A stretch of DNA of 64,000 bases, taken from Allonocardiopsis opalescens. GTDB taxonomy: Bacteria; Actinomycetota; Actinomycetes; Streptosporangiales; Streptosporangiaceae. A program made the translations under genes and the position numbers. Shown piece after piece: positions 38,423 to 45,633 of the stretch. Every line of letters begins with the position of its first letter. The first letter of the stretch is position 1. The stretch covers positions 372,001 through 436,000 of the forward strand of contig NZ_PVZC01000006.1 of NCBI RefSeq assembly GCF_003002095.1. Reading direction: 5' to 3'. The notes beneath the pieces were generated by a model. That model was not told the origin of the DNA. It did no database searches and saw only the letters and a program-made list of their open reading frames with translations.

Positions 38423-38887
38423 TCAGAACAGATGCGCGTTGACACTCCGCACAGCAGCGGCGAATTCCGGCATTTCGACGACCTCGACCCCGGCCGCCCG
38501 CAGCTCTTCCACCCCGTGGCAGTCGACGAACAGCTCCGGCTCCCGCCAGGCGATCACCACCCTGGGCGCTCCGGCCCGCAGGATCAGCCGCGTACAGGTC
38601 ACCGGCCGCGACGCACGCCGGCTGCACGGCTCCAGCGTGCTGTACACGGTCGCGGTGGCCAGCGCCGGATCACCGGCCCGCACCCGGCGCAGCGCGACCT
38701 CCTCGGCGTGGTCGTGCGGCTCCTCCTCGCGCGAGTACCCGCGCGCCAGTTCGGTGCCGTCGTCGGCCACGACCACGGCGCCCACGGAGAAGGCCGTCTC
38801 CGACCGCGGGCACTCCCCGGCCAGCGCGACCGCGAGAGCGAGCCAGTGGGCGTCCGCGCCCGGGGAACCCGGGCGGCGCTCAGCCAC
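38423..38887 (-). CDS. RibD-N-like (CDA fold) zinc deaminase
   Basis: 154 residues from GTG 38887, which overlaps the preceding reductase gene by 8 nt. Cytidine-deaminase-fold zinc site: HAEE (His ligand and catalytic Glu) and EPCSRRASRPVTC with both Cys ligands. The spaced PCxxRxSxPxxC form and CTRLILRAGAPRVVIAWREPE resemble the deaminase half of RibD. With the upstream reductase it makes a split RibD-like pair in the order reductase-deaminase. It may act on a GTP-derived pyrimidine other than the riboflavin precursor. Confidence 0.82.
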   Translation of the reverse strand: MAERRPGSPGADAHWLALAVALAGECPRSETAFSVGAVVVADDGTELARGYSREEEPHDHAEEVALRRVRAGDPALATATVYSTLEPCSRRASRPVTCTRLILRAGAPRVVIAWREPELFVDCHGVEELRAAGVEVVEMPEFAAAVRSVNAHLF

Positions 38888-39569
38888 CGGTGCCCCCGCC
38901 GAGCCGGTAGACCAGCAGCACCACATCACCGATCCGGCGCACCTCGGCCAGCTCCATCCGGTGGTCGCCGCCGTGCGGGAAGGCACCGGGGTGCACGAAC
39001 CTGGGCGCGTCGGCCGCCCCGACGAACAGCGGGGCCACCACCAGGTGCAGCTCGTCCACCAGTCCGGCGGTGAGGAACTGGGTGTGCACCCGGCCGCCGC
39101 CCTCGACCATGAGCCGGCGCACCCCGCGCCGGGCCAGGTCGGCCAGCAGCTCCGGCAGCGCCACGGCAGGGCCGAGGTCCACCACGGAGGCGCGCCCGGC
39201 CAGCGCCGAGCGCAGCCCGGAAGCCGCCCGTGACGCGGTGTAGACGAGCTTGACGCCCTCACCGGCGGTGAAGAACCTGCTGCCGGGGTCGAGACCGCCC
39301 CGGGAGGTGAGGGTCACCTTGGCGGGCTGCGCCGGTTCGCCCCGCTCCACGCGCCGCCGCACCCTCTCGGCCGAGCGCACCAGCAGGCGCGGGTCGTCCC
39401 GCCGGACGGTGGCGGCGCCGACCAGGATGGCGTCGCTGCCGGCGCGTACTTCGTCGACGCGGTCGAGGTCGGCCTCATTGGACAGGATCAGCCGGCGGTC
39501 GGCGCAGTCGTCGATATATCCGTCGACTGAGACCGCGGAGCTGAGCAGTACGTGAGGGCGCCGGCTCAT
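38880..39569 (-). CDS. RibD-C-like (DHFR-fold) pyrimidine reductase
   Basis: 229 residues from ATG 39569. Dihydrofolate-reductase-like fold of the RibD C-terminal domain: LLSSAVSVDGYIDD at the N-terminus, SDAILVGAATVRRDDPRLLVR (NADPH/substrate loop) and RRLMVEGGGRVHTQFLTAGLVDELHLVVAPL. The start cannot be moved downstream without losing the first beta strand, so the gene truly overlaps the 3' end of the regulator gene by 95 bp in another frame. Close coupling suggests a single transcript regulator-reductase-deaminase. Confidence 0.85.
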   Translation of the reverse strand: MSRRPHVLLSSAVSVDGYIDDCADRRLILSNEADLDRVDEVRAGSDAILVGAATVRRDDPRLLVRSAERVRRRVERGEPAQPAKVTLTSRGGLDPGSRFFTAGEGVKLVYTASRAASGLRSALAGRASVVDLGPAVALPELLADLARRGVRRLMVEGGGRVHTQFLTAGLVDELHLVVAPLFVGAADAPRFVHPGAFPHGGDHRMELAEVRRIGDVVLLVYRLGGGTGG

Positions 39570-42500
39570 GCGCGCCGCCCCCGGCACTGAGCAGCCGCTC
39601 CAGGACCGCGACCAGCGAGTCGCCGTCCTCGCAGGCCGCCAGGGCGGTGAACTCGGCGTCCGGCATCCACGAGCGCAAGCCTACGTCGACGCCCATCCGC
39701 CGGTGGACGGCGCGTGCCACCCCGCCGCTCGCGGGGACCGGAATCACCCGCTTGCCGAGGGCGAGCGCGGTGTCGACCTCCTGCTGGGTTCCGACGCCGC
39801 CGCCGAGGACGACGACGTAGTCGGCGTCGCGGACCACGTCGGCGTGGCCGAGGGTGCCCAGGCCGCCGCGCCGCTGCGCGCGCGTCGCGGCCTCGCCCAT
39901 GTGCGCCACGATCTCCAGCGCGATCCCGACAGGGCCGTGGACGAGGTGGACGGCGCGGCCGGCCAGGTGGCCGCCGAGCGCCCGCGCGCAGGAGTCCAGC
40001 ATCGCGTCATCGCTGCCGGTGACCCTGCTGCCGCAGATCGCCAGGGTGACCATGCGCGGAACGTCCGACCGCACCGCCGCCCCGGCCGGCAGCACGCTGT
40101 CGAGCATGATCCGCACCGGCTCGGCGTCGGGCACGCCCAGCCGCATCAGGATGGTCAGCGCCCGCTGCCAGGTGTCGGCCGCCTCCGCGCCGCGGTCCAT
40201 CAGCAGCAGCACGTGGCCGAGTCCGCTCAGCGCGTTGCCCTGGTCGAGCAGGGCGTGGGCCCGCCGCGCCTCCCCTGCCGCCCGCCGGTAGTGGATCTCG
40301 CTCTCGCGGTACTCCCCCCGGGCCCGGTGCACCTCGGCGATGCCGATCGCCGCCTTTGCCCGGTCCGCCGGGCGGCCCGACCGGCGGCTCATCTCCTCGG
40401 CCTCGCGCATCAGGCTCATCGCGATGTCGGGGGCGTCCAGCCGCAGGTGGCTGCGCCCGATGTCGGCCAGGATCTCCGCGGTCGGGGACTGGCCCAGCCC
40501 GTTCAGCACGGTGAGGCCGCGCTGGTAGAGCTCCAGCGCCCTGCGGTGCCGCTGCTTGTACGCCTCGATCAGGCCCAGGTCGTGCAGGGCCGCCGCTTGG
40601 ATCAGCGGCAGCTCGTTCTCCTGCGCCAGCCTCAGCGCTTCCTCGCAGAGGTCGCCGGCCTGCCGGTGCATGCCGAACAGGAAGTACGCGCCCGCGTGCC
40701 CGAGCATCGACGAGCCCTTCCGGAACGGCGTGCGCAGCGTCCGGGAGATGGCGTGCGCCTCCTCGAACTGCGAGATGGCGCCCCGGTAGTCGTCCATGCA
40801 GCGCAGGCTGAGCGCGCTGTGTGCCAGGGCGTCGGCCATGCCGAGCCGGTAATCGGTCTCGCGGGCGGCGGAGAGCGCCTGCTGCGAACTGACCAGCGCG
40901 TCGGGATAGCGGGCCGCCCTGAAGTGGACCAGCCCGATCTCGTCGTGGGCGTCGGCTTCACAGCGCAGATCACCCTGCATCCGTGCCAACTCCAGCCCCA
41001 TCTCGGCGTTGAGCAGCGCGTCGTCCAGCCGCCCGGCACGGCGGTGCGCCCTGGCCAGGTCCACCACCGCACCGGCCAGGCCGCTGTCGTCGCCCAACTC
41101 GTCGCAGGCGGTGGCGGCCGACTCGAACATGTGCGCCGCCACGTCGGGCTGGCCGTAGACGTAGAGCAGGTACGACAGCAGGGCGGGCAGCCGTGCCAGG
41201 TGCCGCGGCCGCTCCCACTCGTCCGCGCACTCCATGGACGCGACCAGCGCGCCCTGCTCGGCCTCGAACCAGCGCCGCACCGCGTGCGGGCCGTCGAATC
41301 CGGGCACCTCGGTGCTCGGGCGTGCCGGTTCGGCCCCCTCCCAGGCGTCCGGATTGATCACCCGGTCGGCCGCCTCGGCCGCCTCGCGGTAGTGCGCGAG
41401 CATCCGGTCGACGGCGGCGTCGCGGTCCGGTGCGGCCAGATCGCTCAGCGCCAGGGCGCGGGCGTGCTGGCCGACCAGGTCGTGGAAGCGGTAGCGCCGC
41501 TGCCCGGCCTCCTCCAGCAGGTGCTCGTCGAGCAGCCGCTCCAGCAGCCGCTCGGTGTCGGACACGGGGCGGCCGACCAGGGCGGCGCCCGCGTACAGGC
41601 CGAACTCGGCCGAGGGGTGCAGACCGAGCCGGACGAAGGCGTCGCGGGCGGGGGTGGGCAGCGCGCGCAGCGACATGTCGAAGGCGGCCGCCAGCGACTG
41701 GTCGCCGTCGTGGATCTCGGCGAGCCGGTTGCGGGTGGCGGCCAGCCGCCTGGCCAGGTCGGCGGCGGTCCAGCCCTGGCGGTTGCGGAGTCGGTGCGCC
41801 ATCATCCGCACGGCGAACGGAAGCCGGCTGAGTAATCGCACCACCTCGCCGACGCCCTCCTCGGACGGCGACAGTTCGGCGATCTGCGCGAAGAGCGCGG
41901 CCGCCTCCTCGGGCGGTGGATCGTCCAGCTTCAGCGAGCGGGCGCCGTCCACCCCGAACAGCCGGTTGCGGCTGGTGACCAGTACGGCGCAGCCGTTGCC
42001 GGTCGGCAGCAGTCGGCGCACCTGCTCGGCGCCCGCCACGTCGTCCAGGACCAGCAGCAGCCGCCGGTCGGCGACCCGCTCGCGCCAGGCCGCCGCGCGG
42101 GCGTCGAGTCCCGAGGGGATGCCCTGCGCCGGCATCCCGGTCATGCGCAGCAGCTCACCGAGCGCCGTCTGCGCGTCCAGCGCCGGCCGGCCCTGGTTGT
42201 AGGCGCGCAGGTCGAGGTAGAGCCGCAGGTCGGGGAAGTGCTCGGCGGCGGCGTGGGCGGCCTGGAGCGCCAGCGCGCTCTTGCCGATGCCGCTCATGCC
42301 GTGCACGGTCCAGATCACCGTGGGCTCGCTCGCGGTGCGCGGCAGCACGCCGAGCAGCGCCGCCAGTTCGCGGGCGCGGCCGGTGAAGTCGCGGACGGCC
42401 GGTGGCAGGGTGCTGATCGCCGCCGCGTCCGCGGCGACGCGGCTCAAGCCGTCGGGCGAGGCCTGCGGCACGGCGATGTCGTGCCGCAGCATGCGCTCGT

Positions 42501-43212
42501 ACAGCTCCCGGGTCTGCCGCTGCGGATCGACGCCGCGCGTGTCGCGCAGGCGCAGCCGCAGCCCGTGGTAGAGGTCGAGCGCCTCGCTGGTGCGGCCGCA
42601 GTTGTACAGCACGAGCATGCAGACCCGCACCACGTCCTCGTCGTCGGGCTTCTCCTGCTCCAGTTCGCGCACCTCGCCGAGCACCTCGGCGGACCGGCCG
42701 AGCCGGATCGCCGCCTCGGCCCGGCGGAGCACCGCGTGCGCGTGCTCGTCGCGCAGGGTGACGCGGGTGGCGCTGGCCCACTCCCCCGCCACCCCGGCCA
42801 GCGGCTCGCCGCCCCACAGCGCCAGCGCCTCGGTCCACAGCGCGACCGCGCCCTCGTCGTCGCCGTTCCGCGCCGCGGCCTGCGCCCGGCCGCACAGCCG
42901 GCGGAAGCGCAGCACGTCCACCGACTCCTGGTCGACGGCCAGGGAGTAGCTGCCGTCGATCTCGCGCAGGTCCAGGCGGCCGGCGGAGAAGTCGCGCATG
43001 CGGTTGCGGATCCGGGAGACCTCCGACCACACGGTGCCCCGCTTCGGCGGATTGTCCGATCCCCATACGCGGTCGATCAGCGTCTCCCGCGGCACGGCGC
43101 GCCCGCCGGCGAGGACGAGCGCCGCGATGACGCCCTTCCCCGCACGCCGCTCGACGCGCATCGTGCGGCCGTCAGAGTGGACCGCGACCCGCCCAAGCAA
43201 AGTGATATACAC
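39475..43212 (-). CDS. SARP - NB-ARC (STAND) - TPR regulator with C-terminal LOG-like SLOG domain
   Basis: 1,245 residues. GTG at 43212 has GGAGG 5 nt upstream and gives the usual SARP opening VYITLLGRVAVHSDG. Domains: winged-helix plus BTAD of AfsR/SARP regulators (1-250); NB-ARC ATPase (about 285-560) with Walker A GMSGIGKSALA (Lys311) and Walker B RLLLVLDDV, and VTSRNRLFG as sensor; winged-helix and TPR-type helical repeats (about 640-1030); then an unexpected Rossmann-like domain (about 1051-1211) beginning MVTLAICGSRVTG and containing LGGGVGTQQEVDTALALGKRVIPVP, whose GGGVGTxxE loop matches the nucleotide-binding signature of LOG/SLOG proteins. The last 35 residues are basic. SLOG domains bind or cleave nucleotides and nucleotide-derived signals, so this could be a nucleotide-sensing transcription activator. 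The gene overlaps the reductase gene downstream. I know of no described regulator with this full architecture. Confidence 0.9.
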   Translation of the reverse strand: MYITLLGRVAVHSDGRTMRVERRAGKGVIAALVLAGGRAVPRETLIDRVWGSDNPPKRGTVWSEVSRIRNRMRDFSAGRLDLREIDGSYSLAVDQESVDVLRFRRLCGRAQAAARNGDDEGAVALWTEALALWGGEPLAGVAGEWASATRVTLRDEHAHAVLRRAEAAIRLGRSAEVLGEVRELEQEKPDDEDVVRVCMLVLYNCGRTSEALDLYHGLRLRLRDTRGVDPQRQTRELYERMLRHDIAVPQASPDGLSRVAADAAAISTLPPAVRDFTGRARELAALLGVLPRTASEPTVIWTVHGMSGIGKSALALQAAHAAAEHFPDLRLYLDLRAYNQGRPALDAQTALGELLRMTGMPAQGIPSGLDARAAAWRERVADRRLLLVLDDVAGAEQVRRLLPTGNGCAVLVTSRNRLFGVDGARSLKLDDPPPEEAAALFAQIAELSPSEEGVGEVVRLLSRLPFAVRMMAHRLRNRQGWTAADLARRLAATRNRLAEIHDGDQSLAAAFDMSLRALPTPARDAFVRLGLHPSAEFGLYAGAALVGRPVSDTERLLERLLDEHLLEEAGQRRYRFHDLVGQHARALALSDLAAPDRDAAVDRMLAHYREAAEAADRVINPDAWEGAEPARPSTEVPGFDGPHAVRRWFEAEQGALVASMECADEWERPRHLARLPALLSYLLYVYGQPDVAAHMFESAATACDELGDDSGLAGAVVDLARAHRRAGRLDDALLNAEMGLELARMQGDLRCEADAHDEIGLVHFRAARYPDALVSSQQALSAARETDYRLGMADALAHSALSLRCMDDYRGAISQFEEAHAISRTLRTPFRKGSSMLGHAGAYFLFGMHRQAGDLCEEALRLAQENELPLIQAAALHDLGLIEAYKQRHRRALELYQRGLTVLNGLGQSPTAEILADIGRSHLRLDAPDIAMSLMREAEEMSRRSGRPADRAKAAIGIAEVHRARGEYRESEIHYRRAAGEARRAHALLDQGNALSGLGHVLLLMDRGAEAADTWQRALTILMRLGVPDAEPVRIMLDSVLPAGAAVRSDVPRMVTLAICGSRVTGSDDAMLDSCARALGGHLAGRAVHLVHGPVGIALEIVAHMGEAATRAQRRGGLGTLGHADVVRDADYVVVLGGGVGTQQEVDTALALGKRVIPVPASGGVARAVHRRMGVDVGLRSWMPDAEFTALAACEDGDSLVAVLERLLSAGGGAHEPAPSRTAQLRGLSRRIYRRLRRPPADPVQ

Positions 43213-43239
43213 GGCGCCCTCCACCGCGATTTGTCATCG

Positions 43240-43269
43240 CCTGCGGGTCTTCCCGCAGGAAGGCGGGAA
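43240..43269 (-). promoter_or_regulatory. Two overlapping, mutually exclusive leader hairpins
   Basis: 28-57 bp before the regulator start: CCTGCGGG-N4-CCCGCAGG (43240-43259, perfect) and TTCCCGC-N6-GCGGGAA (43250-43269, perfect) share 10 bases, so only one can form in the transcript. Attenuator-like geometry, without a U-tract. Confidence 0.5.
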
Positions 43270-43473
43270 AACCCGGGCGCGGGTGGAAGTTTTCACGGCC
43301 GGGGCGTGTATTCGTGTTATCTTTTCCGCGATCATCGCATTGGCACTGCGGTGAACTGGGAAGATGAGAAAGCTTCCTGGTGGGGGCGCACGGGCGGGGC
43401 ACGTGGCCGGAATGTGTCAGCCTCGGCGGCGGTGACGGCGCGGATTCGATCGTGCACACGCACATGATCCTTA

Positions 43474-43489
43474 ACGCGCATTTGCGCGT
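43474..43489. promoter_or_regulatory. 16-bp palindrome ACGCGCATTTGCGCGT
   Basis: Perfect 7+2+7 inverted repeat in the divergent region, 262 bp from the regulator start and 194 bp from the DUF2795 start. Candidate operator; the protein that binds it is unknown, and the SARP-STAND regulator itself is one candidate. Confidence 0.5.
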
Positions 43490-43616
43490 GCAATTCACTT
43501 CGGACTCACCGGCCCCGTTTCTCTCGAATGTGCACGCGGCCGGTCGAATTCCATTTGCGGTTCGCAGGTACGGTTCGCGTCCGGCTCGCGGGCGGCCGCG
43601 GCGCCCGCGGGTGCGG

Positions 43617-43641
43617 GCATGGCGGCCGCGGCGCCGGGTAC
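43617..43641 (+). promoter_or_regulatory. Sigma-B-like promoter of DUF2795-ligD
   Basis: GCAT (43617-43620), 15 bp, GGGTAC (43636-43641). Matches the streptomycete sigma-B consensus GNNT-N14-16-GGGTAC/T. Confidence 0.6.
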
Positions 43642-43682
43642 TGGCAGGGCGTACATGACCGCGAGTCGTTAGGGGATTCCCC

Positions 43683-43886
43683 ATGTCCGCCGTCGAGGAC
43701 CTGCGGGTCGCCAAGGCGCTTGACGGGGTCGGCTACCCCGCCAGCAAGGACGAACTGATCGCCTACGCCGAACGCAACGGTGCCGACGAGCGCGCGCTCG
43801 ACGCGCTGCGCGCGGTGCCCGAGGGCAGCTATCCCAGCGGCGGCGCCGTGGTGGACGCGGTGCCCCCGGAGCCCGGCGCCGGGTAG
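43683..43886 (+). CDS. DUF2795 family protein
   Basis: 67 residues, ATG with AGGGGA 6 nt upstream. SAVEDLRVAKALDGVGYPASKDELIAYAERNGADERALDALRAVPEGSYPSGGAVVDAV (whole protein read in parts) matches the small helical DUF2795 domain, which is related to proteins expressed under stress in actinobacteria. A sigma-B-like promoter lies 42 bp upstream of the start and ligD follows 49 bp downstream, so they may be co-transcribed. Confidence 0.85.
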   Translation: MSAVEDLRVAKALDGVGYPASKDELIAYAERNGADERALDALRAVPEGSYPSGGAVVDAVPPEPGAG

Positions 43887-43935
43887 CGCCGCGATGGCGG
43901 GCCGCCGGCGGCGGCCCGGGAGGAGGCGGGCCGGT

Positions 43936-45633
43936 ATGGCCGAGGAACGGCGCGGCAGCGGCGGCGAGGGGAAGCTGCGGACCTACCACGGCAAGCGCGA
44001 CTTCGCGCGCACCAGCGAGCCCAGGGGTGGCCGGCGGCGGCGCCGCGGCGCGGAGCCGAGGTTCGTGATCCAGCACCACGCCGCCCGGGCCGACCACTAC
44101 GACGTGCGCCTGGAGGTCGACGGCGTGCTGAAGTCGTGGGCGGTGCCCAAGGGGCCCTCCACCGACCCCCGCGTCAAGCGGCTGGCCGTGCCCACCGAGG
44201 ACCACCCGATGGAGTACCTGGACTTCGAGGGCACCATCCCCCAGGGCGAGTACGGCGGCGGGACCGTGCTGGTCTGGGACACCGGCACCTACCGCAACCA
44301 GACCCGCAAGCGCGGCCGCGACATCCCGGTCGAGGACGCGCTGGCCCACGGCCACGTGTCGGTCTGGCTGGAGGGCGAGAAGCTGCGCGGCGGCTACGCC
44401 TTCACCCGCTTCCGCGGCGGCTCGGCCGGCCGGGGCCGGGACGAGGCCTGGCTGCTGGTCAAGGAGGACGACGACGAGGCCGACGCGCGCCGCCGCCCGG
44501 TCAGCAGCCGCCCCGAGTCGGTGCTCACCGGGCGCGGGATGCGCGCCGTGGCGGCGGACGAGGACGGAGGCGGGGCCGGGCGCCCCGGCCACCGGAGCGC
44601 GGCCGAGCACCGCGAGGGCCGGAAGGACCGGCGGTCCGAAGCGGGCCGGGCGACGCGCGGCGGCCGGGACCGGCGCCGCGGACAGGGAGGCGAATCCGAC
44701 GTGACCGCGACCCGTGAGGCGGTGCGGGCGGGCAGGCGCTCCGTCCCGCTCGGCCACCCCGACAAGGTGCTGATCGAGGAGGGCCGGCTGACCAAGCGCG
44801 GCCTGGCCGAGCACTTCCTGCGCGCGTCCGAGCCGATGCTGGCCGAGATCGGCGGCCACCCGCTGGCGCTGCAGCGCTTCCCCGACGGCACCGCGGGCCA
44901 GAGCTTCTACCAGAAGCGGCTGCCCGACCACGCCCCCGACTGGCTGTCCTCGGTGGAGGTGCGGCGGCACGAGGACGACACGATGACGATGCTGGTCTGC
45001 GAGGACGCCGCGAGCCTGGTCTGGCTCGCCGACCAGGCGGTGCTCACTCCGCACCCCTGGCTCAGCCGGGCCGACGCCCCCGACCTGCCGGACCGGATGA
45101 TCTTCGACCTGGACCCGCCGGACGCCGACCGGCCCGATTTCGACCTGGTGCGCCGCACGGCCTGGCGGCTGCGCGCGCTGCTGGACGAGCTCGACGTGCC
45201 CGGCTACCTGATGACAACCGGCTCGCGCGGCCTGCACGTGGTGGTGCCGCTGCGCCGGGAGGAGCCCTTCGACGAGGTCAAGCACGTCGCGCGCCAGATC
45301 GCCGAGCTGCTGGTCGCACGCGACCCCGGGCACCTGACCACCGAGGTGCGCAAGAAGCAGCGGCACGGCCGCCTCTTCGTGGACGTGCTGCGCAACGCCT
45401 ACGCGCAGCTCGCCGTCGCGCCCTACGCCGTGCGCCCGCTGCCGCAGGCGCCGGTGGCCGCGCCGGTCGCCTGGGACGAGCTGGACGGCCTGGAGTCGGC
45501 GCGGCAGTGGACCGTGCGCACGATCGAGGCGCGGCTGGCGGAGGGCGTGGACCCGTGGCGGGGCATGCACCGGCGCGGCCGCTCGCTGGCCCGCATCGGC
45601 GAACGGGTGCGCAGGCTCAGCGACGGGGGCTGA
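43936..45633 (+). CDS. ligD: LigD-like phosphoesterase-polymerase protein without ligase domain
   Basis: 565 residues from ATG 43936, after AGGAGG. N-terminal 3'-phosphoesterase domain (about 20-185): RFVIQHHAARADHYDVRLE and WAVPKGPS with EYLDFEGTIPQGEYGGGTV, the conserved His/Asp/Arg metal site. An Arg/Glu-rich linker (about 190-260) leads to an archaeo-eukaryotic primase-type polymerase domain with the metal-binding DLD in RMIFDLDPPD (about 390) and TTGSRGLHVVVPL. No ATP-dependent ligase motif (KxDG) is present, so it must cooperate with a separate ligase in Ku-dependent end joining. The two-domain PE-POL arrangement differs from the three-domain mycobacterial LigD. Confidence 0.9.
   Translation: MAEERRGSGGEGKLRTYHGKRDFARTSEPRGGRRRRRGAEPRFVIQHHAARADHYDVRLEVDGVLKSWAVPKGPSTDPRVKRLAVPTEDHPMEYLDFEGTIPQGEYGGGTVLVWDTGTYRNQTRKRGRDIPVEDALAHGHVSVWLEGEKLRGGYAFTRFRGGSAGRGRDEAWLLVKEDDDEADARRRPVSSRPESVLTGRGMRAVAADEDGGGAGRPGHRSAAEHREGRKDRRSEAGRATRGGRDRRRGQGGESDVTATREAVRAGRRSVPLGHPDKVLIEEGRLTKRGLAEHFLRASEPMLAEIGGHPLALQRFPDGTAGQSFYQKRLPDHAPDWLSSVEVRRHEDDTMTMLVCEDAASLVWLADQAVLTPHPWLSRADAPDLPDRMIFDLDPPDADRPDFDLVRRTAWRLRALLDELDVPGYLMTTGSRGLHVVVPLRREEPFDEVKHVARQIAELLVARDPGHLTTEVRKKQRHGRLFVDVLRNAYAQLAVAPYAVRPLPQAPVAAPVAWDELDGLESARQWTVRTIEARLAEGVDPWRGMHRRGRSLARIGERVRRLSDGG

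Follow-up and report, generated by a model that had tools for sequence, protein, structure and literature searches.

The window analysed here is a stretch of 64,000 nucleotides from Allonocardiopsis opalescens (contig NZ_PVZC01000006.1). In it we found a transcription regulator that, judged by sequence, resembles a large SARP extended at its end by a SLOG domain, an arrangement with one occurrence so far. The regulator would head an operon in which it is followed by a pyrimidine reductase and a deaminase, both of the RibD type, and a RibD_C gene adjoins a SLOG of the SARP, helix-turn-helix (HTH) or remnant type at 20 of 20 loci in four actinobacterial families. We give a probability of about one half to the reading that this is a SLOG-gated large SARP, which activates its own ribD operon and senses a nucleotide-like metabolite of the riboflavin pathway. 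The domain architecture and the linkage to RibD_C are direct observations; the ligand, the direction of the response and the targets are what we infer. A SLOG-SARP next to ribD suggests an undescribed way in which the metabolism of nucleotides or flavins could be coupled to transcription.

The regulator is encoded by a single stop-free frame at 39475-43212 on the minus strand, starting at GTG 43212 (1,245 residues) or GTG 43224 (1,249 residues). An earlier, sequence-only reading of this DNA had given the same interval, which stands as one frame, with the strand now corrected to minus; a plus-strand reading was discarded, as it contains stops in the frame read. That reading had also described SARP/BTAD, NB-ARC, TPR and C-terminal Rossmann-like regions in a 1,245-residue frame, and both the Pfam matches and the predicted fold agree with this. 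The features of the regulator are the following.

39475 to 43224, minus strand: SARP-NB-ARC-TPR-SLOG regulator; open frame with Pfam domains and a coding G+C content at third codon positions (GC3) except in the tail.
42991 to 43128, minus strand: OmpR-type DNA-binding domain, Trans_reg_C, residues 33-78 (PF00486, 2.8e-6, 27.7 bits against a cut-off of 26.2).
42487 to 42921, minus strand: BTAD, residues 102-246 (PF03704, 2e-30, profile matched over its full length); HTH and BTAD together form the SARP module.
41956 to 42345, minus strand: NB-ARC STAND ATPase (PF00931, 1.8e-7).
40120 to 41157, minus strand: TPR region, with approximate limits set by eye (PF13424, TPR_12, 1.7e-21, five stretches).
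39574 to 40056, minus strand: predicted SLOG domain with a ThsA-like fold (LDcluster4 1.6e-5 and TIGR00725 5.5e-6, both sub-threshold; 13 relatives aligned).
39475 to 39573, minus strand: C-terminal tail, 32 residues and the stop codon (GC3 0.62, model confidence 49-64), missing from the aligned relatives.

In the whole-protein scan, the matches to Trans_reg_C, BTAD, NB-ARC and TPR_12 all exceeded the Pfam cut-offs. Walker A (GMSGIGKS, 42277-42300) and Walker B (LLVLDD, 42040-42057) are both intact. Thus the protein has the N-terminal OmpR-type HTH and BTAD, the central NB-ARC with Walker motifs and the following TPRs of a large SARP, but it does not end with the TPRs, as about 200 further residues follow them. 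The AfsR equivalog model NF053617 scored 456.9 bits against a cut-off of 1430, with residues 4-950 as the best stretch. By sequence, the regulator is an AfsR-like large SARP, and the NF053617 score rules out AfsR itself. The SARP-NB-ARC-TPR body was matched at E ≤ 1e-150 in 17 of 297 genomes of the family, own genome counted. We read the homologues from 14 of the 16 other genomes; all 14 stop directly after the TPRs and none carries a SLOG.

The fusion frame looks truly coding, because GC3 stays high, at 0.94-0.98, over codons 1001-1200, which span the TPR-SLOG junction. It drops to 0.62 only in the final 50 codons, stop included. The last 32 residues are an out-of-frame read over the start of the reductase gene and lie outside the SLOG domain; from residue 161 of the C-terminal AlphaFold model onward the predicted local distance difference test score (pLDDT) is 49-64. 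The sequence gives no hint of an assembly error behind the fusion, and reads would be needed to exclude one.

When the C-terminal part was scanned alone, TIGR00725 matched at 5.5e-6, under its curated cut-off, and the Pfam SLOG family LDcluster4 reached 25.0 bits against a gathering threshold of 26.3. The profile check of the C-terminus thus gave matches to both families, each below its cut-off. In a set of 11 members (the window protein and ten aligned relatives), all 11 gave matches at E ≤ 1 to LDcluster4 (best E-value 3e-8), LSDAT_prok (1.6e-6) and STALD (2.7e-5). The best match in the PDB by sequence was TM1055 (1rcu; 1.9e-6). Thirteen aligned relatives share 29-38% identity with the window SLOG, and GSR as well as GG, G, T and E of GGGVGTQQE are invariant in 14 of 14 aligned sequences. 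In the window, GSR lies at 40024-40032, GGGVGTQQE at 39778-39804 and SGGVA at 39715-39729, and the domain retains GSR, HGP.G, GGG.GT..E and P.SGG.A. The LOG motif is PGG.GT..E with a catalytic arginine and glutamate. The window domain has GGG in place of PGG; the glutamate is present and the arginine could not be placed by alignment. The basic residue preceding the GGG motif is H or R in the aligned SLOGs.

To predict the fold, the last 198 residues were modelled by AlphaFold with a 14-sequence alignment (mean pLDDT 83.8). The top Foldseek match of this model in the PDB was the SLOG of BcThsA with the cyclic ADP-ribose (cADPR) isomer 3'cADPR bound (E 1.7e-6). In VIA-align, ThsA entries reached Z-scores of 14.5-16.6 (16.6 for BcThsA); the scores were lower for TM1055 (13.5), a Moco-binding protein (12.7), DprA (10.9) and LOG (10.0). 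Over 161 residues, the model superposes on the BcThsA SLOG (7uxs_A) with a root-mean-square deviation of 2.6 and a Z of 16.0, and the top PDB matches are SLOG/LOG proteins. A second model, of an Actinomadura-type HTH-SLOG protein, ranks alike (ThsA 15.9-17.9, TM1055 15.1). Both models clearly predict a SLOG fold that is nearer to the ThsA SLOG than to LOG or DprA. The sequence-only reading had called the domain LOG-like; the SLOG part of that assignment is borne out by the structure prediction, whereas LOG and DprA were dropped as the nearest type in favour of ThsA on the fold scores of the two models. The ranking by sequence differs from that by fold, with TIGR00725 and TM1055 coming out best. 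BcThsA itself was matched only weakly by the SLOG profile (E 0.45-0.94), and was not among the matches when the SLOG half of a SIR2-SLOG protein (L058, see below) was used as query. The ThsA ligand residues named in PMC10022894 (R371, K388 and E403) could not be mapped onto this SLOG family, given the E-values for BcThsA (0.94/0.45) and an insignificant SLOG-level alignment for SeThsA.

We then searched for relatives of the SLOG domain. A search of genome_contigs with the single window SLOG sequence gave no match, and an alignment query then gave 14 loci. In a sample of 341 genomes of the window's family, SLOG relatives occur at 17 places in 16 genomes, own genome included. Among 394 genomes of the class, three carry the SLOG, all from this same family, and 249 genomes of the family of Saccharomonospora gave one locus, which was already known. 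The SLOG stands behind an XRE-like HTH in Saccharomonospora iraqiensis and Promicromonospora kroppenstedtii, with HTH_31/HTH_3 matches that exceed their cut-offs. The Actinomadura, Spirillospora and Actinocorallia loci have a front end of roughly 100 residues before the SLOG; it is largely helical in the model, and the two examples scanned matched HTH_31 only weakly (0.0038 and 0.0059). A metagenome-assembled Micromonosporaceae genome has a visible N-terminal remnant that resembles, by eye, the Actinomadura-type front end. One sensor-like module is thus joined to DNA-binding bodies of at least two kinds, HTH and SARP-STAND. Broken or truncated SLOG regulators stand beside RibD_C in several genomes of the Actinomadura group (L036, L037, L040, L041). 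L036 and L037 were omitted from alignments A2 and A3, since their SLOG frames are broken or truncated, and the rows of L055, L021 and L056 from our reading of the relatives' SLOG loci.

At all 17 SLOG places in the 341 family genomes, four of them with a fragmentary SLOG, a RibD_C match touches the SLOG or lies within about 100 bases of it. A RibD_C gene also adjoins the SLOG at three of three further loci, from Micromonosporaceae, Pseudonocardiaceae and Promicromonosporaceae. The 20 loci are therefore made up of the 17 places, 11 of which are also among the 14 named loci, and three other named loci. The SIR2-SLOG of L058 was left out of this count; the two close RibD_C matches of its genome, G275, are on other contigs. 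When neighbouring genes were clustered across the window and the 14 named loci, one family was present in 15 of 15, a RibD_C reductase that lies immediately 3' of the SLOG gene and shares its strand; for L062 and L070 the SLOG was taken from the alignment query. RibD_C genes are common (22 matches in the window's 7-Mb genome), but not nearly common enough for this linkage, which is far beyond chance. The 20 linked loci mostly share descent and do not represent 20 independent events.

For the reductase tree, six near-identical copies of named loci were removed first, leaving 38 rows in which those with a fragmentary SLOG (L097, L098, L119 and L122) were scored as SLOG-linked. A single clade (support 95/89) unites 17 SLOG-linked reductases from Thermomonosporaceae, Micromonosporaceae, Pseudonocardiaceae and Promicromonosporaceae, which suggests horizontal spread with the linkage kept. 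The reductases of L097 and L098 fall outside this clade with weak support. At face value the tree suggested two origins of the SLOG-RibD_C link (two changes); a single origin was not rejected (approximately unbiased test, p 0.327). The SLOG tree gave no resolution. The window SLOG has probably been under selection for long, because its motifs and coding composition have been kept at no more than 38% identity to its relatives.

The following features of the window complete the putative operon.

38880 to 39569, minus strand: RibD_C-type reductase with an ATG start at 39569 (PF01872, 2.1e-44; TIGR01508, 7.2e-42, below cut-off).
38423 to 38887, minus strand: RibD-type deaminase with a GTG start at 38887, set by eye (PF00383, 5.3e-16 on the longer open reading frame; deaminase half of TIGR00326, 1.1e-16).
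43225 to 43779, strand not assigned: intergenic region and presumed promoter of the regulator, in which no sigma-70-type site was found.

With the starts picked by eye, the reductase gene begins inside the regulator frame, with an overlap of 95 nucleotides (39475-39569) in different frames, compared to four nucleotides between the SLOG gene and the reductase gene at L059. The deaminase start overlaps the reductase stop by eight nucleotides. The Pfam matches of both enzymes are above cut-off (PF01872, 152.1 bits; PF00383, 58.8 bits). For TIGR00326, the reductase scored 87.4 bits and the deaminase 61.0 against a cut-off of 156.35, which is hard to reach because the halves are separate genes and the cut-off was set on the fused protein. 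The model nearest to the reductase, the archaeal-type equivalog TIGR01508, gave 143.0 bits against 186.45. Upstream of the regulator, a search for SARP-type promoter repeats gave nothing convincing. Two 18-nucleotide direct copies with 78% identity, 36 nucleotides apart, were seen at 43439-43492, as were two identical 8-nucleotide copies; both may be due to chance.

In the window's own genome (98.1% complete) no match passes the TIGR00326 cut-off for RibD, and the best reductase match and the best deaminase match are the window pair. The rib operon is on contig C4 (L133, 8341-12602) and comprises rpe, an FMN (flavin mononucleotide) riboswitch, riboflavin synthase, RibBA (DHBP synthase and GTP cyclohydrolase II) and lumazine synthase, with all enzymes above the Pfam cut-offs. 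The riboswitch lies before riboflavin synthase (9120-9277 of L133, 67.2 bits). This operon contains no ribD and has no space for one among its genes. These sequences make it plausible that the organism relies on the window pair as its RibD. No FMN riboswitch was found near the window operon at the gathering threshold; this absence is not special, because 16 SLOG-less ribD loci, with flanks of about 1.5 kb, likewise lack one.

We propose that an AfsR-type SARP acquired the C-terminal SLOG as an additional ligand sensor. Its ligand could be a RibD substrate or product, FMN, FAD (flavin adenine dinucleotide), NADP(H) or another ADP-containing nucleotide. The linkage to RibD is the reason for naming a flavin-pathway nucleotide, FMN, FAD or NADP(H); FAD contains ADP, as cADPR does, and NADP(H) is the cofactor of the reductase. 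Binding would relieve or impose STAND autoinhibition, accompanied by nucleotide exchange at the NB-ARC domain, and the SARP module would then activate the operon promoter upstream of 43224. The proposal allows for activation or repression by the ligand. For this SLOG-driven STAND switch we joined two reports: in AfsR, the SARP module is held inactive by NOD and TPR until ATP binds (PMC10936776), and the SLOG of ThsA is an established sensor of cADPR isomers, in which binding alters the quaternary structure (PMC11204291). The circuit would most likely adjust RibD supply to the state of flavins or nucleotides beyond the reach of the riboswitch, and it is a candidate for protein-based control of a ribD pair not covered by the FMN riboswitch of the rib operon.

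Inducer binding to the sensor domain of AfsR has been called elusive (PMC10936776); a discrete sensor-type domain with a strong genomic clue to its ligand makes the question of AfsR-type inducers testable with a small panel. The regulator also suggests a metabolic, transcription-controlling branch of the SLOG fold known from Thoeris immunity. A wider reading, to which we give somewhat less than even odds, assumes a family of regulators in which a ThsA-type SLOG has been swapped between XRE-like HTH and SARP-STAND-TPR bodies and kept with the RibD reductase, reading a flavin-pathway or ADP-containing nucleotide. If true, the SLOG fold of cADPR immune sensors would also serve cofactor homeostasis, and there would be a large SARP whose class of inducer can be named.

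Several observations weigh against the proposed ribD circuit or its extension to a family. A survey for further SARP-NB-ARC-TPR-SLOG fusions, as foreseen by the sequence-only reading, found the SLOG inside a SARP in one of 341 family genomes, that of the window itself. The R of the GHRNV motif, present in 11 of 14 rows, is replaced by A in the window. In the tree, the closest partner of the window reductase is the SLOG-less pair of genome G340 (90/92), outside the clade of the other cassettes. A close copy of the reductase (E ≤ 1e-35) occurs in 221 of 338 family genomes and is far commoner than the SLOG. All 18 SLOG-less ribD loci that we read, drawn from the 30 best-scoring loci and not at random, have an adjacent deaminase and no SLOG. 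Beside SLOG-linked reductases, the DNA showed a deaminase only in the window, Saccharomonospora and Promicromonospora. In the 338-genome sample, all 14 other SLOG-bearing genomes have a second close reductase, while the window's genome has one. The linked reductase of the Actinomadura group is then an extra copy without a deaminase, and its job may not be riboflavin supply. At the loci with a broken SLOG the reductase is still there, and the regulator seems dispensable. The TIGR00326 cut-off was passed in only 1 of 17 genomes tested, so this genome is not unusual in lacking such a match. Most SARPs act in secondary metabolism (PMC10972967). The regulator's ligand, promoter and targets are putative.

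Four other explanations were considered. RibD substrates are phosphoribosyl-aminopyrimidines and are near LOG substrates in kind, and the SLOG might be a LOG-like N-glycosidase that cleaves a RibD-pathway pyrimidine or purine carrying a ribosyl phosphate, either to repair metabolites or to turn over a signal, with its turnover state gating the SARP. The glutamate of GT..E and GSR are invariant in the 14 aligned SLOGs, and some SLOG clades are glycosidases (PMC9503650). However, the GGG in place of the PGG of LOG, the preceding H or R and a fold for which the ThsA sensor scores above LOG (Z 16.6 versus 10.0) make such a trigger enzyme unlikely. It is distinctly unlikely that the fusion is neutral, that is, that the SLOG of an HTH-SLOG gene upstream of ribD joined the SARP gene by chance and senses nothing now. 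The occurrence in one genome only, the disappearance of both the GHRNV arginine and the former stop, the non-homologous tail and the broken SLOGs at other loci would all fit this; the retention of GSR, HGP.G, GGG.GT..E and P.SGG.A together with coding composition, despite the low identity, speaks against it.

The sequence-only reading had favoured a nucleotide or nucleotide-derived signal, possibly related to damage or phage. A nucleotide-like ligand is the likely input. The phage or damage part found no positive support beyond the ThsA-like fold, in an analysis that did not include a genome-wide TIR search. In this reading the SLOG would bind a cADPR-type alarm made by a TIR protein or an ADP-ribosyl cyclase under phage attack or damage, and the SARP would trigger the response. 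In line with this, the nearest fold was solved with 3'cADPR bound, and SLOG profile A1 also reaches the SIR2-SLOG protein of L058 (352-1791 of an Actinomadura-group genome, 4.2e-10), which is ThsA by PADLOC (5.5e-62) and by its match to solved ThsA, mainly via its SIR2 half; a P.SGG.A stretch is common to L058 and the window SLOG by eye. Moreover, the HTH-SLOG protein of L071 marginally matches ThcA of Thoeris type III (0.0081), and a LigD-type repair gene is divergent from the regulator. On the other hand, no defence-type family was conspicuous, and no TIR (ThsB) was found, among the seven window open reading frames or the conserved neighbours scanned at the 14 loci, a scan that did not cover every neighbour. 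For the regulator PADLOC gave nothing but TPR-protein matches, the constant partner is the RibD reductase, and none of the other named loci has a gene equivalent to LigD. No SLOG relative was found in viral_contigs, and none in plasmids with the window SLOG; a mobile or viral origin of the SLOG was rejected on these searches. The HTH-SLOG queries matched plasmid records mainly at their HTH end, four within residues 3-144 of the L028 protein and one within residues 7-76 of the L071 protein. We therefore consider a conflict sensor improbable. The damage link via LigD, present at this locus only, is unproven rather than excluded.

Very improbable, finally, is that the enzymes serve a pyrimidine- or pterin-like secondary metabolite or protection from an antifolate, with the SLOG sensing that compound and the SARP being an ordinary cluster activator. 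The usual role of SARPs would agree with this, as would the Actinomadura-type loci with their second reductase, no deaminase and, in many cases, a nearby JmjC-oxygenase, aldo-keto reductase and function-unassigned gene. Yet the window pair is the best RibD of a genome whose rib operon lacks ribD, and the scan of seven window open reading frames showed no biosynthetic core gene.

Compared to known systems, the regulator shares HTH, BTAD, NB-ARC and TPR in identical order with AfsR and large SARPs, and differs from them in its C-terminal SLOG and its place at the head of a ribD operon. ThsA of Thoeris has the nearest fold for both models (Z 16.6 and 17.9), whereas the regulator has no SIR2 match, is a transcription regulator and has no TIR partner among the neighbours scanned. 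The LOG, TIGR00725 and Moco carrier proteins share the SLOG fold (Z 10 to 13.5), the GT..E motif and the TIGR00725 match, the latter below cut-off, but are stand-alone proteins with lower structural scores than ThsA. A partial precedent is RbkR, an archaeal riboflavin kinase-regulator that combines a DNA-binding domain with a flavin-related module and controls riboflavin genes; its module is a kinase rather than a SLOG, and it is not a STAND protein. Sporadic HTH-SLOG fusions have been reported in phages (PMC9503650) and likewise join a SLOG to a DNA-binding domain, whereas the loci described here are on chromosomal contigs, are linked to RibD_C and include one SARP-STAND member. In the open-access literature we found no paper on a link between SLOG and RibD, although an earlier mention in the 2015 SLOG survey is possible, and none that adds SLOG to SARP, NB-ARC and TPR. 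A text search of the 2024 SARP review (PMC10972967) gave no occurrence of SLOG, and the full domain order is absent there, in agreement with the sequence-only reading, which knew of no described regulator with this order. PMC7159879, on the SLOG/helix-turn-helix topic, gave no occurrence of SARP, BTAD or AfsR.

Among the neighbouring genes, the LigD-type gene (43780-45633, plus strand) comprises a 3'-phosphoesterase and a primase-polymerase, with no ligase domain matched. Upstream of the HTH-SLOG gene at 7 to 9 of the 14 named loci is a divergent set encoding a JmjC-type oxygenase, an aldo-keto reductase and a 282-residue protein, as in L059 (6360-9287, minus strand), where the 282-residue protein has no Pfam match at 0.01. 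A gene adjoining one cassette (L115, 2570-3667, minus strand) looks by eye like DUF4062-type proteins.

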